Source of the DNA: Lachnospiraceae bacterium
GTDB taxonomy: Bacteria > Bacillota > Clostridia > Lachnospirales > Lachnospiraceae
Direction: 5' to 3'
NCBI GenBank assembly: GCA_014804245.1
Contig: JAAVAE010000015.1
Span: forward strand, 38,843 to 102,842
DNA: 64,000 nt
Under the pieces are notes generated by a model. The model was given only the letters and a program-made list of their open reading frames with translations. It had not been told where the DNA came from and ran no database searches. Made by a program: the position numbers and the translations under genes. Of the stretch, positions 1,835 to 64,000 are shown one piece after another. Positions within the stretch are counted from its first letter, which is position 1; the number at the start of each line of letters is the position of its first letter.

Positions 1835-2112
1835 GAAGAGGCTGGGGGAAGTGAGGACGGGGGAGGGGCGGCATCCATCTGTACGGCTCCTATGTGCAGG
1901 AATAAGAAATTCTAGGAATTCCTCATGAAGGAAATTGGTACCGGACGCAAACGGCGCATTGGTCATCCATGACCAAGTTGCGCCTGAATCGGACCTCCTG
2001 TCCGATTCTTGCTGGTAATCAGAGGAATTCTGAGAATTTCTAATTCCTTTCCATAAGGAGCCGTACAGATATATGCCGCCCCTCCCCCGCCCTCACTTCC
2101 CCCAGCCTCTTC
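1835..2112 (+). repeat. Long imperfect inverted-repeat element, copy A (hairpin family)
   Basis: Arms GAAGAGGCTGGGGGAAGTGAGGRCGGGGGAGGGGCGGCAT... pair end to end; core GAAATTGGTACCGGACGCAAACGGCGCATTGGTCATCCATGACCAAGTTGCGCC matches copies B-D read on the minus strand. Confidence 0.85.
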
Positions 2113-2230
2113 TGACATTCTAAATCTCTATGAGATAAAAAATCTGTGATTTAACTCATTCGTTACCAAGAAAAACATTCGTATATTTTATAGTTAAAGC
2201 TTTTCTCTTTAGTAAACATTGTGCGCCTGC

Positions 2231-2515
2231 GGCAGCGTCGGGGTAGATATCCTTCTGCATCAGGCTGGACAAAAATCTATGGCGGTTCCTTATGGAAAGC
2301 GATTAGAAGGACTTAACAGCCCTCCAAATACCAGCAATCGGCGGACAGGACGTCCGCCGAAGGCGTAACTTGACCCATGGATGGGTCAATACGCCGTTTG
2401 CGTCCGGCGCCGATTTCTAACCAAGGGCTGTTTAGTCCTTCTTATCGCTGTACATAGGAACCAACATAGACTTTTGTCCAGCCTGATGCAGAAGGATATC
2501 TACCCCGACGCTGCC
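2231..2515 (-). repeat. Long imperfect inverted-repeat element, copy B
   Basis: Arms GGCAGCGTCGGGGTAGATATCCTTCTGCATCAGGCTGGACAAAA...; core shared with copies C and D; lies 7 nt beyond the nadE stop codon. Confidence 0.9.
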
Positions 2516-2522
2516 CCACCTC

Positions 2523-6228: not shown

Positions 6229-7074
6229 TCATTCTCCCAGCTTCATCGCTACCACAAATCCAACTGCAAATGTCACCACACTTACCAGCACACTTGCCAC
6301 CGTCACAGTTCCCACTTCTCCCAATAAAAAGATGGCAAACGGAGATGCCACAATCAGACCGATGATTGCCCAATATGCCTGAATAGGAAATTTTTCAAAA
6401 ATAATCTCAATGATCTTTGCAATGGCAAAAACTCCCACCACAATCCCCAATCCCATGGGAACCAGAACACCGCATCCCTGCAGGATGCCATTTATGTCAA
6501 AAGAAACCAAAGCGGTTACAAAGTTCTTGATGGAAGCTACAATAGGATTGTAATATCCCATAAGCAGCAACATCATGGATCCGCTGACGCCGGGGATAAC
6601 CATAGTTGCGGAGGCAATGATACCAACTACAAATAACTTGATGACTGACCAGAGGCTAAAGGACAGATCCGCCGAAACGCCTTCCTTTTCTCCCATGGCT
6701 GCCATACCGACTACTATGGCAAAGAAAATCAAAAAGGGAAGCACATAACTTACTTTGATTCCTTTTCCCTTTACCTTCTTAATAACCGCCGGAAGTCCAC
6801 CCACGATCAGACCCACGAACAGACAATTCGTCTGCAGCGGAAAATGGACAAACGCGGGCTCTATGATAAAAGATAATCCCACCAGTGCAATTCCCATTCC
6901 AATAGCAACCGGAATCAGGAACTTCATGCTCTCCTTAAATTCCTTGAACAAATGTGTTACGCAATGAATCAGTTTGTCATAGATTCCCATGGAAACCGCC
7001 ATAGTTCCTCCGCTGACACCGGGAATAATATTTGCAATCCCCATCACCATACCTTTTAAAATCGTCTTAATCAT
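6229..7074 (-). CDS. DUF368 family membrane protein
   Basis: MIKTILKGMVMGIANIIPGVSGGTMAVSMGIY... and second MVIPGVSGSMMLLLMGYY motif. Confidence 0.9.
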   Translation of the reverse strand: MIKTILKGMVMGIANIIPGVSGGTMAVSMGIYDKLIHCVTHLFKEFKESMKFLIPVAIGMGIALVGLSFIIEPAFVHFPLQTNCLFVGLIVGGLPAVIKKVKGKGIKVSYVLPFLIFFAIVVGMAAMGEKEGVSADLSFSLWSVIKLFVVGIIASATMVIPGVSGSMMLLLMGYYNPIVASIKNFVTALVSFDINGILQGCGVLVPMGLGIVVGVFAIAKIIEIIFEKFPIQAYWAIIGLIVASPFAIFLLGEVGTVTVASVLVSVVTFAVGFVVAMKLGE

Positions 7075-8137
7075 TTTTTCTCTCCTTTAGGTAATCTTCT
7101 AAAAATGCAACCAGTTTTTCCATCTGCTCATCTGTTCCAATGGTGATACGCAGATAATTGTCTATTCTGGGTTTATTCCAATATCGTACATAAATATTGT
7201 TTTCTTTCAGTGCAAGAAAAATCTCCTTCGCCGGAGCGCTCTTATGGGTAACGAACAGGAAATTACTCTGGGAATCCGAAAAAGCAAATCCAAGCCTTCC
7301 CAGCTGTTCCTTCGTCCATTCCCTTGTCTTTATGATTTTTCCCACAATCTCTTTAAAATAAGCGTCGTCTAAAACAGCCGCCGTCCCCATTTCAATAGCA
7401 GGCATATTCATAGTATAAGAATTAAAGGAAAATTTCACGTCCTTTAAATACCCAATCATCTTTTCGTTTGCAATGGCAAAGCCAATCCGCATTCCAGCCA
7501 TTGCCCGGGATTTTGAAAAAGTCTGCACCACCATCAGATTGTCATATTTGTCAACAAGGGGTATCATACTCCTGCCGCCAAAATCCACATATGCTTCGTC
7601 AACAATCACCACGGAATCAGGATTGGCGGAAGCAATTTCCTCAAACATGCTGATATCCTCCAGCACGCCTGTAGGCGCATTGGGATTTGGTATGATGATT
7701 CCTCCGTTGGGCGCCAGATAGTCTTCTTTTTTTATACAAAAATTTTCATCCAGCGGGCATCTTTTATAGGGTATTCGAAGCAGTTCTGCCCACACATCAT
7801 AAAAGGAGTACGTAATATCGGGAAACAAGATCGGCTGCTCCCCATTAAAAAAAGTCATAAATGCCATTGCAAGCACGTCATCCGACCCCACTCCCACAAA
7901 AACCTGGGCGGGTGATACATGATAGTATTCTGCCAGCGCATTCACCAGTTTCTCCGCATTCATATCCGGGTAGAGGCGAAGTTTGTCACAATCTAAATTT
8001 TCTGCAATCCGCCTAACAGCCGGTGCAGGCGGATAGGGGCATTCATTGGTGTTTAGTTTGATTACGTCTTCTGCCTTGGGCTGCTCCCCTGCAACATAGG
8101 GTTCTACCCTCCTCACGTTTTTTTCCCAGTTCATCAT
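7067..8137 (-). CDS. hisC: Histidinol-phosphate aminotransferase family protein
   Basis: Class I/II aminotransferase; IKLNTNECPYPPAPAV, FSKSRAMAGMRIGFAI (PLP lysine region). Confidence 0.85.
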   Translation of the reverse strand: MMNWEKNVRRVEPYVAGEQPKAEDVIKLNTNECPYPPAPAVRRIAENLDCDKLRLYPDMNAEKLVNALAEYYHVSPAQVFVGVGSDDVLAMAFMTFFNGEQPILFPDITYSFYDVWAELLRIPYKRCPLDENFCIKKEDYLAPNGGIIIPNPNAPTGVLEDISMFEEIASANPDSVVIVDEAYVDFGGRSMIPLVDKYDNLMVVQTFSKSRAMAGMRIGFAIANEKMIGYLKDVKFSFNSYTMNMPAIEMGTAAVLDDAYFKEIVGKIIKTREWTKEQLGRLGFAFSDSQSNFLFVTHKSAPAKEIFLALKENNIYVRYWNKPRIDNYLRITIGTDEQMEKLVAFLEDYLKERKND

Positions 8138-8264
8138 TTATCCTCTTTTACCTATTATAAGTTATAAGATTAGCGTTCTTAAATCTCTGCTCCCTATGGT
8201 AACATTATCCAGACTTGCCTGCAAGTATTATTCGTCTAAAATGTCATAGGTTATCAAGGCGCGG

Positions 8265-8570
8265 CTCCGGGGATAGGGGACAGCGGCGGCTGGGATGAAA
8301 TGGCTGAGGGGCGGTGTGCTTCCGGTTGCAGGGCTAGTCTTCAAATCGGATTTCACTAACGGAATGGATGTAGGTATTGCAAGTCGGACGGGGCGGAGCC
8401 GGGCGGCATCCTGCCTTGTGGCTCCTAAAATCGCCATCCATGGCGATTTTACCCTGACAGTCCACCATTCCGTAAGTGAAATTACCGATTTTCCGCCATA
8501 GCCCTGCAACCGGAAGCACACCGCCCCTCAGCCATTTCATCCCAGCCGCCGCTGTCCCCTATCCCCGGAG
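8265..8570. repeat. Long inverted repeat with 72-nt perfect arms (related architecture, diverged core)
   Basis: CTCCGGGGATAGGGGACAGCGGCGGCTGGGATGAAATGGCTGAGGGGCGGTGTGCTTCCGGTTGCAGGGCTA occurs at the left and as exact reverse complement at the right. Confidence 0.9.
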
Positions 8571-8686
8571 CAGATTATCCCTCACTTATTCTATCTATTT
8601 CGATGCTATACCTCATACCCGAAGCCGAGCATCTCCCACTCATTCCATCTAAATCGCAGCTGTGCTCTCTACCTAACGCAAAGTCT

Positions 8687-9022
8687 GTCCCAATGTCCTT
8701 TCGCTTAGGGGCGGCACTGGCAGGACAGAGTTCCCACTGCACCCAAGTGGGCATAAATCTATATCGGAGCCTTATGGGAAGCGATTAGAAGTACTTAACA
8801 GCCCGTCACTCTCAGCAATCGCCGGACAGGACGTCCGGCGAAGGCGTAATTTGACCCATGGATGGGTCAATACGCCGCTTGCGTACGATGCCAGTTCCTA
8901 AATTAGGGCTGTTTAGTCCTTCTTATCGCTGTACATAGGATTCGATATAGACTTATGCCCACTCGGGTGCAGTGGGAACTCTGTCCTGCCAGTGCCGCCC
9001 CTAAGCGAAAGGACATTGGGAC
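8687..9022 (-). repeat. Long imperfect inverted-repeat element, copy C
   Basis: Arms GTCCCAATGTCCTTTCGCTTAGGGGCGGCACTGGCAGGACAGAGTTCCCACTGCACCC...; core shared with B and D; 8 nt beyond the downstream-labelled glycosyltransferase stop codon. Confidence 0.9.
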
Positions 9023-9030
9023 CCTAACCG

Positions 9031-10059
9031 TTATAGTTCCTCCGCTGCTCGCTCATACTCCTTTGCTTGTTCCGGCATTCCCATTTTTTCGTAGCAGCGT
9101 GCAAGTCCTTTGAGGGGAAGGTCGCTGCTGCAGTGGATGTTTAAAATGCTCTGGGTCTCATAAGCCGCATTATAGAACCAGATTGCCGCCTCCTGGTATT
9201 CTCCCTGTGCAAAATAATATTCTCCCAGTTCATAGCAGACCTCGCTTACGCCCTCACTTGCAACGTCCTTCATTGCATAGCGGTACATTTTAAGGAAGTC
9301 TCCCCGCATTCTTGCGGCGCGTACTACCACGCACACAGCTTCTTTCATCTGGTCCGGCTCTGTCTCTTCTCCGTCGGCAAGGCGGGTGAAATAATCCTCT
9401 GCTTTTTTAAGTTCCTTCTCGGTACCGGAAATGAGCAGTTCCTTTGCATACATATTGGCAAGGCGTTTAGACAGTAACTGTCCTTTGTCCGTCATTCCTG
9501 CAAAGATTTCCATGTCTCTACCTGCATGGCTTCTTTCTGGCAGGTGGGTAATTTCTATATCGCTGTCAAAGACCACCGGAAGTAGGCGTACCGTTTCATG
9601 TACCGGCTCAATCCAGCAAAAACTGCGGAGTCTTTTAAAAAGCTTGGGGCGCAGTTCTTTATCATAATTATATACCGTACCGTGGGAAAGCTGGTTTCCG
9701 TAATACATCTGGACAATTTCCACTTCGCTTACTAACGTTTCTTTTAAGATTCGGAATTTTTCACGGTTTTCTTCATCTAATACCTCGTCCGCATCTGCTG
9801 CATAAATATAATCACACCCCGCCTTAGAAAAGGAAAAGTTTCTTGCCTCAGAGAAGTCGCCCGTCCACGTGAAATCATATACTTTGTCCGTATACTCCGC
9901 TGCAATCTCCTTCGTCCTGTCTGTAGATCCGGTATCTACAATAATCATTTCATCCATCAAATCCCTGATGCTGTCAAGACAGCGCCTCAAAACCTTTTCT
10001 TCATTCTTTACGATCATGCACAGACTGATTGTAATACTGGAATGCTTTTCTTTCTGCAT
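9031..10059 (-). CDS. Glycosyltransferase family 2 with C-terminal helical/TPR-like region
   Basis: SLCMIVKNEEKVLRRCLDSIRDLMDEMIIVDTGSTDRTKEIA...YAADADEVL. Confidence 0.9.
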   Translation of the reverse strand: MQKEKHSSITISLCMIVKNEEKVLRRCLDSIRDLMDEMIIVDTGSTDRTKEIAAEYTDKVYDFTWTGDFSEARNFSFSKAGCDYIYAADADEVLDEENREKFRILKETLVSEVEIVQMYYGNQLSHGTVYNYDKELRPKLFKRLRSFCWIEPVHETVRLLPVVFDSDIEITHLPERSHAGRDMEIFAGMTDKGQLLSKRLANMYAKELLISGTEKELKKAEDYFTRLADGEETEPDQMKEAVCVVVRAARMRGDFLKMYRYAMKDVASEGVSEVCYELGEYYFAQGEYQEAAIWFYNAAYETQSILNIHCSSDLPLKGLARCYEKMGMPEQAKEYERAAEEL

Positions 10060-39264: not shown

Positions 39265-39560
39265 TACAAGTGATTGAATTTAAAAGCAATGATAAGAAGA
39301 AGTAGCATAAAGTGAAACATACAGAAAGCAGCCGGTTGATGAGAGGCGCATGAGAAGCTATATGTGAATACATCTTTGAGCTTCGCACCAAATAATCTTA
39401 TGATTTAGTAGGCTGCGACGGTTCCTGCATCCGTTAACATGCTAGAGTATAAGCCCAGGCGGGTCGTACTCGAAGAGGTAAGCAGCGTGAGCTGTTTATG
39501 AACATTAGGTGGTATCACGAGATTTGACTCTCGTCCTATTGAAGGACGGGAGTTTTTTAT
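39265..39560 (+). ncRNA. T-box leader (tyrosine)
   Basis: AGGTGGTATCACGAG T-box-like sequence followed by terminator GACTCTCGTCC..GGACGGGAGTTTTTT; TAC at 39369-39371 plausible specifier; upstream of tyrS. Confidence 0.85.
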
Positions 39561-39562
39561 TA

Positions 39563-39602
39563 CAATAAGCTGACTCGCGAAGCGTGGCAGCGTTTGTTTG
39601 TC
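39563..39602 (+). repeat. Short dispersed repeat, copy 1
   Basis: ACAATAAGCTGACTCGCGAAGCGTGGCAGCGTTTGTTT; near-identical to the reverse complement at 45019-45057. Confidence 0.75.
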
Positions 39603-45018: not shown

Positions 45019-45057
45019 AAACAAACGCCGCCACGTTTCGCGCACCAGCTTATTGTA
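45019..45057 (-). repeat. Short dispersed repeat, copy 2
   Basis: Minus strand ACAATAAGCTGGTGCGCGAAACGTGGCGGCGTTTGTTT. Confidence 0.75.
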
Positions 45058-45061
45058 AATA

Positions 45062-45100
45062 AACAGAGAGAATCTTATTGAAAAAGGTTCTCTCTGTCAA
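45062..45100 (-). terminator. Stem-loop terminator of the downstream-labelled hypothetical gene
   Basis: Minus strand GACAGAGAGAACCtttttcaataaGATTCTCTCTGTTTATTT. Confidence 0.65.
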
Positions 45101-52118: not shown

Positions 52119-52456
52119 GACCCAATGTCATTTATAGAAGGGACCGCAGCTGCGGGGCAGATATCTCGCTTCATCTGGCTGGACAAAAGTCTATGGCGGA
52201 GCCTTATGGAAAGCGATTAGAAGGACTTAACAGCCCATCCATTGCCCAGCAATCGACGTACAGGACGTCCGTCGAAGGCGTAACTTGACCCATGGATGGG
52301 TCAATACGCCGTTTGCGTCCGGTGCCAATTTCCGAACAAGGGCTGTTTAGTCCTTCTTATCGCTGTACATAGGATTCGCCATAGACTTTTGTCCAGCCAG
52401 ATGAAGCGGGATATCTGCCCAGCGGCTGTGGTCCCTTCTATAAATGACATTGGGTC
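52119..52456 (-). repeat. Long imperfect inverted-repeat element, copy D
   Basis: Arms GACCCAATGTCATTTATAGAAGGGACC...GGCAGATATCYCGCTTCATCTGGCTGGACAAAAGTCTATGGCG; core shared with copies A-C; 11 nt beyond the permease stop codon. Confidence 0.92.
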
Positions 52457-57649: not shown

Positions 57650-60600
57650 TTATCTCTTTTTCGCCAACACTTCCCGAAGTGTTTTCTTGAACTGCTCAAA
57701 TACAATGGGCTTGGAGACATGGGCATCCATTCCGGCATCCAGCGCATCCCGGACATCGTCCACAAAAGCGTTCGCAGACATGGCGATGATTGGAATCGTC
57801 TGCGCGAAGGGATGTTCACTGGCACGAATAGCCCTGGTTGCTTCATAACCATTCATGACCGGCATTTGTATATCCATCAAAATAAGATCATACTTATCAG
57901 CCGGAGCATTTACTACCATCTCCACTGCTTTCTGTCCATTCTCCGCGACATCGCATTCTGCTCCCAGTGTACCCAAAAGTTTCACCAATACCAGCTGATT
58001 GACACCTATATCGTCTACCACAAGGACATGTTTGCCAGCTACCAGATTCTTATCATTGCTCTCCTGAATTCCCTTTTGTGATGTTCCCATCATCCGCTGA
58101 ATCGCATCCTTAAAATTACTCATAAAGAAGGGTTTCTGCAGAAAATGCTCAATCCCGATCTCCAGCGCTTCCTGTTCAATTTCTCCCCAGTCATAGGCAG
58201 TGAACAGCAAAATCGGTATTTTATCCAGATAATTTTCCCGAATCCGTCTGGCCGTAGTCATCCCGTCCAAATCGGGCATTTTCCAATCCAACAGAACCAA
58301 ATCATAAGGACTCCCTGCTTCCCGCGCACTTCGAATCATTTCAACAGCCCGGATGCCGCTGGTTGCATACTGTACTTCCACACCTGTGCCTGCCATCTTT
58401 TTCACAATATCACAGCAAATATCCTCGTCATCGTCTGCAACAATCATACGTGCTACACTATGCTTACTCCAGAATTTTGGATCGTCTTCTCTGGTCTGGA
58501 TACGCAGCTCCAACTCCACTATAAAAGTACTTCCCTCTCCCGGTCTGCTCTCCACTTTAATTGAACCATTCATCAGATCAACCAGACTCTTCGTAATCGT
58601 CATACCAAGACCGGTACCCTGAGCCGCGTTCAAAGTTGCATTCTGCTCACGGCTGAAAGGCTCAAATATCACCTTCTGATATTCCTCGCTCATTCCTTGA
58701 CCATTGTCACTGATGGTAAATCGAATGCGGCTGTAGCTTTCATCTACCTGAGGCAGCTCATCCACCAACATCTTGATTTCACCGCCATCTTGTGTATATT
58801 TCACTGCATTTGACAAAATATTAATCAGGATCTGGTTAATGCGCAACTTATCACCCAACAGGTGCTCGTTGGTCAGGGACATGGTAAATATATCAAATCT
58901 CTGCTTCTTTGCATTGGCCTGAGGACGGATAATTGTGTTGATTTCATCAATAATCTCCGCCAAGTTCAGCTCGGAGAGATTCAGTACTGCACTGCCGCTT
59001 TCAATTTTATTCATGTCCAGCACATCGTTAATCAGCCCCAGCAGATGTTGGCTGGCGGCAGATATCCTCTGCGTATACTCCCGCACATGTTCCGGCTTAT
59101 CCGCCTCTTCCTGCAAAAGAGGGATAAATCCCATAATCGCATTCATTGGGGTACGAATGTCATGGCTGACACTGCTTAAGAATACACTCTTCGCCTTATT
59201 TGCCATCTGGGCCATATTCAGTGCCTCAGAAAGGGTGTTCTGAACCTGTTTCTCCTTAGTCCGGTCCGAAATATAAATAACAATCTTTTTGATTCCCTGC
59301 ACCAACACACAATATACACTTTCGAGAAACCATTTGCGCTCCCCGGTCTTTCGGTGAATCCGCTCGGTCTCCATCGGCTCCAGTGACATTCCTGGCTGCA
59401 GTGCAAGCAGACCTTCCGTACCGATTTCTCTTCCTGTAATGTATCTGGCATGACCAATCTGATTCACATCATCCATGATGGCCTTCCAAGGGATGCCCAG
59501 CACACGTTCAATATTGGGACTGACAAATTCAGCCTTTTCCCCTCCCTCATCAAGCATCATATAGACATCATCTATATTATCTGACAAAAAGGTGGAGAAT
59601 GTCTCGAATATCTGCTCCTGATACTTAATTTCCTGATTCTTTTTTGCCCACCTTTGCTCATCCTTTAATTTTTGTGCAGTAAAGTCCAGCAAGAACCGTT
59701 GATAATACAGTTCACCGCTTTTCTCAATGAGCTTAATATTTCCTAAAATATGTATTTCCCTTCCATTCTTGTGCCGTATGCGGTACTCCACATTAACACT
59801 GTCCCCTATCTTTGTCAGGGACCTGATACACTCCCGAAGCCTTTCCTTATCCTCGTCCACAACAGTCTCAGCAATCAAATCAAAGCCGTCCGTCATCAAT
59901 TTCTCCTGTGATTCATAGCCCAGAAGCCTAAGCGCAGCCTGATTAACGCTGATGATCCGACTTCCATCAATACTATGGCACATCACACCGCAGTCCATTG
60001 TAGCAAAAAGCATTTCCAGAGTCCGGTTTTTTTCAAGAATTTCCTGCTCGTAAACCTGCTCTCTAGTCACATCCACTGCAATCCCCACAGTTCCCATGAC
60101 ACTTCCGTCCCAATCATACAGCGGAGATTTATAGGTAGTCAGCGTCCTTTCACCTTCACCCGTCTGGATAAACTCTCTGGCCACGCAGGTCTCCTTTTTT
60201 CGCATAACTTCCAATTCCGACTCAATGCATGCCGGATCGTCCTGCTCCACATCCCAGATATAAGCGTGCCTTTGTCCCTGCACCTGCTCTCTTGTTTTAT
60301 TGACCACCTTACAGAAACTTTCGTTTACGATTTCATGAACGCCCTCTTTGTCCTTAAACCAGATTAAATTCGGAGAACTGTTCATGCTGATCTCCCTGAA
60401 TTGCTCAGACTGCCAGAGATCCATTCTGAGCTTATAGTCCTTCTGCCATTTTCGAAAGCGGAATCTGATTTCCTTGTCTGATACAGGCATGATCCATATA
60501 TCCTCAATTTCAGGCAGGTCATCCGGTAACGCCATAACCTGCTCCCTGTCAGCAAGCAAAATCAGTTCAGCCTCTTTTTTCTTGTGTGCGGTAAGGGTTC

Positions 60601-62382: not shown

Positions 62383-64000
62383 AATTATCCTCTCCTTCAC
62401 TCATCTTTTCTTGTTTCCGCTTGTCAAATACCTGCTGTATGGTGTCACTCATCTTATCCGGACGGATTGGCTTGGCAATATGCGCATCCATCCCTGACTC
62501 AAGGGCTGTACGAACATCATCCACGAAAGCGTTAGCCGTCATAGCAATGATTGGCAGTGTTTTTGCCGAAGGATGATCGCTGCTGCGAATCGCTCTTGTG
62601 GCTGCATATCCATCTAAAACAGGCATCTGCACATCCATAAGAATCAAATCAAAATCATCCGGCGGGGAATCTAAAAATCTTTCCAAAGCTTCCTGTCCAT
62701 TGCATGCCACATCGCAGACCGCCCCCATTGAACTAAGAATCTTAGTCAGGACAAGCCGGTTTGCCTCAATATCGTCCACAACGAGAATATGTTTCCCCTT
62801 TACTACCATGCTGCCGCTTTCCGTCTTGACCCTCTTCCGACTGCCCATAACCCGTTGGATTACCTCCTGGAAAGTCGTCATAAAGAAAGGCTTGGGCATG
62901 AAATGATTCACACCGATTTCCGCAGCCTCCTTCTCGATTTCGCCCCAATCATAAGCAGAAAACAGCAAGATTGGAATCTTTTCTGAATAGTTTCTGCGAA
63001 TCAGCCGTGCAGTTTCAAAACCATCCGGATTCGGCATCTTCCAGTCTAGAAGAACCAGATTGTAAGGGGAGCCTTCCTCACTGGCGGCACACATCATTTG
63101 AACTGCACTTTCACCGTCAGTGACATAATCCAAAACAACACCCGTTTTCTCCATGGCTTTGACAATGTTGAGGCAAATCTCCTCGTCATCGTCCACCACG
63201 AGCATTTTATTAATTCCATGGTTAATCCAGAACTTAGGGTCATCTTCCTTCTTGCTTATGTATAGTTCCAGTTCCACGGTAAACACACTGCCCTCATCAA
63301 GCTTGCTCTGTACCTGAATCGTTCCTCCCATTAAATCTACCAGGCTCTTGGTAATCGCCATTCCCAGCCCTGTACCCTGAATCTGGCGGATGATCTCCGT
63401 ATTCTCACGGGTAAAGGGATCAAAGATTACCTTTAGGTATTCTTCGCTCATTCCCATGCCATTATCGCTGACGGTAAACCGGATGCGGCTGTAGTTGTCG
63501 TCCACCTGCGGCAGTTCATCCAGCCGCATCTGGATATCCCCGCCTTCCGGCGTATACTTCACGGCATTGGACAATAGGTTGATCAAAATCTGATTGATAC
63601 GCAGCTTATCCGCCTGCAGGTGCTCATGAACCACAGAGGATGAGAATATTTCAAAGGTCTGATTTTTCGCCCTCGCCTGCGGCCGGATAATCGCATTGAT
63701 CTCGTCGATGATGTCAGCAAGATCTATCTCTGACAGATTCAGTGTCGCGCTCCCAGTCTCAATCTTATTCATATCCAGCACGTCATTAATCAATCCCAGC
63801 AAATGCTGGCTGGCGGCATCAATCCGATGTGCATACTCCCGCACACGGGCAGGATTCTCCGCCTCATCCTGTAACAAAGTACCAAACCCAATGATTGCAT
63901 TCATGGGGGTACGGATATCGTGACTGACACTGCTTAGGAACGTACTTTTGGCATCATTTGCCACTTGTGCAATCTGCAGTGCCTCCGCCAGCGCATTCTG
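62369..64000 (-). CDS. Hybrid sensor histidine kinase with two receiver domains (N-terminus beyond window)
   Basis: Frame stays open past 63964 to the edge (QNALAEALQIAQVANDAKSTFLSSVSHDIRTPMNAIIGF); close paralogue of 57650-60793. Confidence 0.95.
   Translation of the reverse strand, partial: QNALAEALQIAQVANDAKSTFLSSVSHDIRTPMNAIIGFGTLLQDEAENPARVREYAHRIDAASQHLLGLINDVLDMNKIETGSATLNLSEIDLADIIDEINAIIRPQARAKNQTFEIFSSSVVHEHLQADKLRINQILINLLSNAVKYTPEGGDIQMRLDELPQVDDNYSRIRFTVSDNGMGMSEEYLKVIFDPFTRENTEIIRQIQGTGLGMAITKSLVDLMGGTIQVQSKLDEGSVFTVELELYISKKEDDPKFWINHGINKMLVVDDDEEICLNIVKAMEKTGVVLDYVTDGESAVQMMCAASEEGSPYNLVLLDWKMPNPDGFETARLIRRNYSEKIPILLFSAYDWGEIEKEAAEIGVNHFMPKPFFMTTFQEVIQRVMGSRKRVKTESGSMVVKGKHILVVDDIEANRLVLTKILSSMGAVCDVACNGQEALERFLDSPPDDFDLILMDVQMPVLDGYAATRAIRSSDHPSAKTLPIIAMTANAFVDDVRTALESGMDAHIAKPIRPDKMSDTIQQVFDKRKQEKMSEGEDNFEFV

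Follow-up and report, generated by a model that had tools for sequence, protein, structure and literature searches.

An 893-nt gap in the DNA analysed here (a 64,000-nt stretch from a Lachnospiraceae bacterium, referred to as the window) separates hisC (7067-8137, minus strand) from a glycosyltransferase-like gene (9031-10059, minus strand) and contains a long inverted repeat at 8264-8571. The initial annotation had described perfect arms of 72 nt at 8265-8570; this was borne out, the arms being slightly longer (73 nt), 100% complementary and separated by 162 nt. Chance cannot be the origin of a perfect inverted match of this length. As single-stranded DNA the 308-nt element has a folding energy of -154 kcal/mol (z = -24). 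Its core lies upstream of hisC and on the same strand. In 14 congeners the hisC gap is about 24-340 nt and holds no such element, and the genomes G015 and G004 have unrelated DNA there. The features of this element and of the four similar elements in the window (A to D) are as follows.

8264-8336, no strand: left arm, 73 nt, perfect complement of 8499-8571
8336-8498, minus strand: core, TwoAYGGAY (RF01731), subfamily S2
8350-8482, minus strand: imperfect inner stem of the core, 8350-8367 with 8465-8482, 94%
8499-8571, no strand: right arm
8572-8686, no strand: 115-nt spacer separating the outward-facing elements 8264-8571 and C
8687-9022, plus strand: element C, the partner; arms 8687-8772 and 8937-9022 (86 nt, 95%), core 8773-8937 (RF01731)
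1835-2112, minus strand: element A; arms 1835-1891 and 2056-2112, core 1891-2055 (RF01731)
2228-2518, plus strand: element B, forming an outward pair with A; arms 2228-2290 and 2456-2518, core 2291-2456 (RF01731)
52119-52456, plus strand: element D, single; arms 52119-52204 and 52371-52456, core 52205-52371 (RF01731)

The core at 8336-8498 belongs to the Rfam family TwoAYGGAY, which it matched from end to end (model positions 1-168; 74.3 bits by cmscan, gathering score 43). In all five elements, which are 278-338 nt long, the RF01731 match fills exactly the space between the arms. This accounts for the layout and the CATCCATG tip that had been noted as common to this element and A-D, and the second, imperfect stem reported inside the arms is also real. 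The proposed pairing with C holds, but C is not a minus-strand element: by the strand of the Rfam match C is on the plus and the 8336-8498 core on the minus strand, so that the two face outward. The loops of the core's hairpins are CATGGATG (first) and GCAGGATGC (second); when checked against AYGGAY the first, CAUGGAUG, fits and the second, GCA-GGAUGC, is one base short. TwoAYGGAY was originally reported from gut Clostridiales as 'probably' RNA, probably not cis-regulatory and of unknown function (PMC2864571). A pattern match in Phycisphaerales (L226) was rejected as a member of the family.

Copy number is high and patchy. There are 49 RF01731 matches, in two subfamilies, in the genome of the window (G000; 2.9 Mb, 60% complete), about 30-80 in six species of the genus and 0 in about half of the congeners; family-wide, 65 of 396 genomes have matches. 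Element sites other than the hisC gap are common to G000 and species about 88% identical at the protein level. A search of viral_contigs with one core pattern for signs of phage spread gave no match. Another short repeat, AATAAGCTGNCTCGCGAAGCGTGGCAGCGTTTG, is present in the window as two copies inverted relative to each other (39555-39599 and 45019-45063). At least two TwoAYGGAY cores (G000:C5:43078-43281; G000:C15:13903-14107) appear to carry it within their first hairpin, which would nest one repeat inside another.

The arms are private to each locus. Each of the 47 whole copies in G000 has near-perfect self-complementary arms, which continue past the Rfam core for 30-168 nt, in most cases 57-100 nt. 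When the outer segments of 24 arms were searched against the whole genome, each matched only its own two arms, apart from one with weak extra matches; a role of the arms as guides was rejected, as this search gave no strong off-site match. A recognisable common arm consensus exists in a subgroup of copies (C, D and others). Private self-complementary arms, several of them perfect over 27-60 nt, are also present in G363, a genome in two contigs; perfect arms are not universal, since in G440, a one-contig genome, arm complementarity is looser. Four copies in G363 (C1:1003536, 1101828, 1102944 and 1341486; L324, L332, L327 and L321) have arm sequence in common, over about 31, 75 and 200 nt outward from the core, and these differing lengths may be a record of copy spread.

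Both arms mutate together. The sister genome G021 has the same element at the same site as 8264-8571, with three arm substitutions, each of them matched by its exact complement on the other arm. Over 13 orthologous elements of G000 and G021 there were 70 coordinated versus 27 one-sided substitutions (about two or three coordinated ones would be expected under independence, by our own estimate from per-arm divergence), and 6 coordinated and 7 one-sided indel columns. At a single-copy locus in G021, G015 and G004 (arms about 70 bp), 22, 24 and 16 substitutions were coordinated and none one-sided. Coordinated changes comprised 74 transitions and 69 transversions and one-sided changes 22 and 7, counts that contain overlapping comparisons of one three-species locus. 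Independent divergence of the arms in relatives, named beforehand as a refuting outcome, was tested for and did not occur. At one paired locus the arms of the first element are quite different in G000, G015 and G004, each set being perfectly or almost perfectly self-complementary. G363 and its congener G456 have a site in common at which the arms of one genome bear no sequence relation to those of the other, though both sets are self-complementary; the core there is inverted. Recent formation, one of the origins offered for the perfect arms, is not needed, given the same element at the same site in G021 and the other sites common to species about 88% identical.

An effect of assembly was considered, the compared genomes being drafts. 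Short-read assemblers could collapse two diverged arms into one sequence, giving false perfect complementarity and apparent coordinated change. G000, G021, G015 and G004 are drafts made up of tens of contigs each (MAGs, as far as traced), some arms in the draft MAG assemblies contain N, and the G021 contig ends within the right arm of the 8264-8571 orthologue. Against this, these assemblies still contain the 27 one-sided differences, the arms of G363 are completely different from those of its congener at one common site, and the isolate IMSAGC_005 has a copy with 73-nt arms (97%). The private self-complementary arms are not purely a MAG artefact, since they are also found in the two-contig G363 and in one isolate copy, and it is very improbable that collapse by assemblers explains the pattern as a whole.

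Cores behave differently from arms, being about 95% identical where arms are about 91%; therefore something selects the core, which template switching between the arms leaves unnamed. The core of the G021 orthologue of 8264-8571 is 94% identical only after inversion, and cores are inverted at three of the 13 orthologues including this one, with the caveat that long arms are difficult for short reads. Recombination between the arms could in principle flip the core as a regulatory switch, altering expression of hisC or of a neighbour. The three inversions are what such a switch predicts, yet there is no promoter signal, the elements stand beside unrelated genes in all orientations and the orientation of a core may reflect assembly, so that this idea is barely credible. 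At the paired locus the subfamily of the second element's core varies as well: S1 in G000, S2 in G015 and G004. At another site (G021 C51:23923, G000 C9:40883) the arms are about 86% similar and the cores only 79% identical, a pattern that reads as a core replaced with its arms retained.

The family has been treated as a structured RNA. If the arms pair as a long stem in RNA that compensatory mutations maintain, with GGA loops that bind CsrA, the coordinated changes would follow from selection. A selected RNA stem is expected to favour G.U over A.C mismatches. In the arm columns of all elements with an aligned arm, drawn from many genomes of the family, about 95% were Watson-Crick pairs (7709) and the exceptions were 119 A.C, 109 G.U, 96 transversions and 50 gaps. 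The absence of a G.U excess therefore counts against RNA-level selection, the tRNA control for this test (seven tRNAs, poorly parsed) being too small to use. Strong selection on an RNA stem, another origin offered for the arms, is to that extent not supported. The short hairpins inside the core are almost devoid of G.U (6 in about 2480, against 97 A.C, most of these at two columns).

Genomic context also bears on a role as RNA. The RF01731 match itself, which Rfam types as 'Cis-reg', and the fact that the 8264-8571 element is co-oriented with hisC and upstream of it are in favour of such a role. Nevertheless, the elements show no fixed position or strand relative to a downstream gene: orientations of neighbouring genes are random (36/32/29/25, n = 122, none preferred) and the core is inverted in G021. 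Sense promoters are not in excess upstream of the elements (37 vs 37/47/30), and a divergent promoter between the members of a pair was rejected because this lack of excess is general. The conserved loops resemble CsrA sites, and a CsrA-titrating sRNA has been proposed (PMC4333381). CsrA is encoded in most congeners, but it was not detected in the copy-rich G004 (78 matches) and G036 (at least 31), both incomplete, and is present in many genomes without copies. Dependence of copy number on CsrA was rejected, as copy number does not track CsrA; this distribution makes the CsrA-sponge idea less probable. Taken together, an RNA stem as the reason for the arms seems unlikely.

Close copies almost always face outward. 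Among 30 neighbours less than 700 bp apart, 29 were outward, one was in the same orientation and none inward (P about 8e-17); beyond 3 kb the outward orientation is no longer favoured. Where one sister species has a pair, another can have a single element at the corresponding site, and vice versa. The window pair A/B (1835-2518) corresponds in G021 to one element (C41:31560-31726) with the left arm of A and the right arm of B, apparently a chimera of the two. A single as the ancestral state at the C9 locus is disfavoured by the pairs in G015 and G004, and the G021 single is therefore more likely a product of deletion or fusion. With outgroups included the pair may predate the single, and the single may be the outer arm of one element fused to the core of the other.

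Sites with and without an element were also found. In G015 one site holds a 425-nt insert whose arms are 97 nt long; G000 and G021 lack it, with a gap of 2 nt. Neither arm is present at this, the cleanest empty site, and derivation of the arms from the target was rejected for that reason. Such empty sites, the high and patchy copy number (49 in G000, 0 in about half of the congeners) and the arm consensus of the subgroup with C and D would suit a recently active MITE or foldback transposon, whose arms would be ordinary terminal inverted repeats carried along by every new copy. However, the tested arms are not common to different copies, and there is no target-site duplication of fixed length, the junctions overlapping by 2-7 nt or leaving gaps of 2-27 nt. 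The wide pairs checked enclose, by inspection, only ordinary genes (serine protease-like, NUDIX and GNAT-like, MATE and HEAT-like), so that a transposase carried between them was rejected; between pair members in G363 there are only short ORFs of 110 aa or less. Recent transposition with ordinary terminal repeats is thus quite improbable.

REP, BIME and REPIN sequences are likewise numerous intergenic palindromes, often in inverted pairs (PMC3116915, PMC2817692, PMC3733652). Those repeats differ in being 20-40 bp long; they carry a GTAG/CGTC tag and are associated with a RAYT transposase. The elements here are about 300 nt (278-338 nt in the window) and none is tied to such an enzyme.

An old REP-like dispersed palindromic DNA element, with a TwoAYGGAY core and arms rewritten by hairpin template switching, is the reading that we favour, at a probability of roughly two in three. 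During replication, core and arms would fold back in single-stranded DNA; when the fork stalls, the polymerase would copy one arm with the other as template. A mutation arising in one arm would then be lost or be copied into the other arm, and a switch on entering the palindrome might leave the core inverted. As an outcome, the arms would keep their complementarity while drifting in sequence, and so become private to each locus. Template switching is the probable copying mechanism because homogenised arms and spacer inversion are its two known products, and because transversions are many; of the origins first considered for the arms, homogenisation by template switching is the one that gained support, from the same three changes on both arms relative to G021. 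We infer that the element was once dispersed by some enzyme, as a non-autonomous mobile element of REP-like type. Several points weigh against the favoured reading: assemblers can merge near-identical arms and choose the orientation of a core arbitrarily, the arms of G440 are looser, the conservation of the core is left unaccounted for, and no transcript, mobilising enzyme or target-site duplication came to light. If core inversion is frequent, moreover, the strictly outward pairs would demand an extra explanation. SbcD is encoded in all copy-rich genomes checked; loss of SbcCD was on that ground rejected as an explanation, and missing palindrome cleavage is not obviously why the arms survive.

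Similar processes have been described elsewhere. Template switching within inverted repeats gives paired outcomes, arm homogenisation and spacer inversion, and a transversion bias of the process in bacteria is cited in the same study (PMC8604942). The quasipalindromes analysed there resemble the present elements in both outcomes and in many transversions among coordinated changes, but they are short and scattered, whereas here a whole repeat family is affected, at dozens of loci and for a long time. Nematomorph mitochondrial palindromes are another case of long, perfect inverted repeats in which the two arms evolve in concert (PMC6649704); they lie in organelle coding genes, whereas the present copies are intergenic and belong to one bacterial repeat whose core is conserved. 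The core agrees with TwoAYGGAY as described, scoring above gathering end to end and coming from gut Clostridiales. Rfam, however, models 168 nt only, and the present copies have long private arms beyond this on every whole copy, face outward when close together and have a substitution pattern unlike that of an RNA stem.

Neither the core, a known Rfam family, nor the process of arm homogenisation is new in itself. Apparently new, from a search of open-access full text, is a whole repeat family undergoing arm homogenisation, with private arms at every tested copy and outward pairing, together with evidence that base pairing in the family does not have to stem from an RNA. TwoAYGGAY has been among the unexplained bacterial 'RNA' motifs since 2010. 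If the favoured reading is true, covariation, the main evidence for calling structured RNAs, can arise without RNA, and a count of G.U versus A.C mismatches exposes covariation derived from DNA. The family would then also be a natural many-locus system in which to measure bacterial template switching and palindrome stability. A bolder version, in which TwoAYGGAY is a self-palindromising DNA element and not an RNA, the core actively remaking its mirror arms and the outward pairs serving a dedicated, undescribed mechanism of replication or spread, is speculative and on balance doubtful.

Elsewhere in the window, a T-box leader (RF00230, 107 bits) lies at 39280-39541 on the plus strand. Stretches of 222 and 300 nt are repeated between 58646-59186 and 63404-63944, 4758 bp apart and with 74-77% identity, and are probably duplicated genes.
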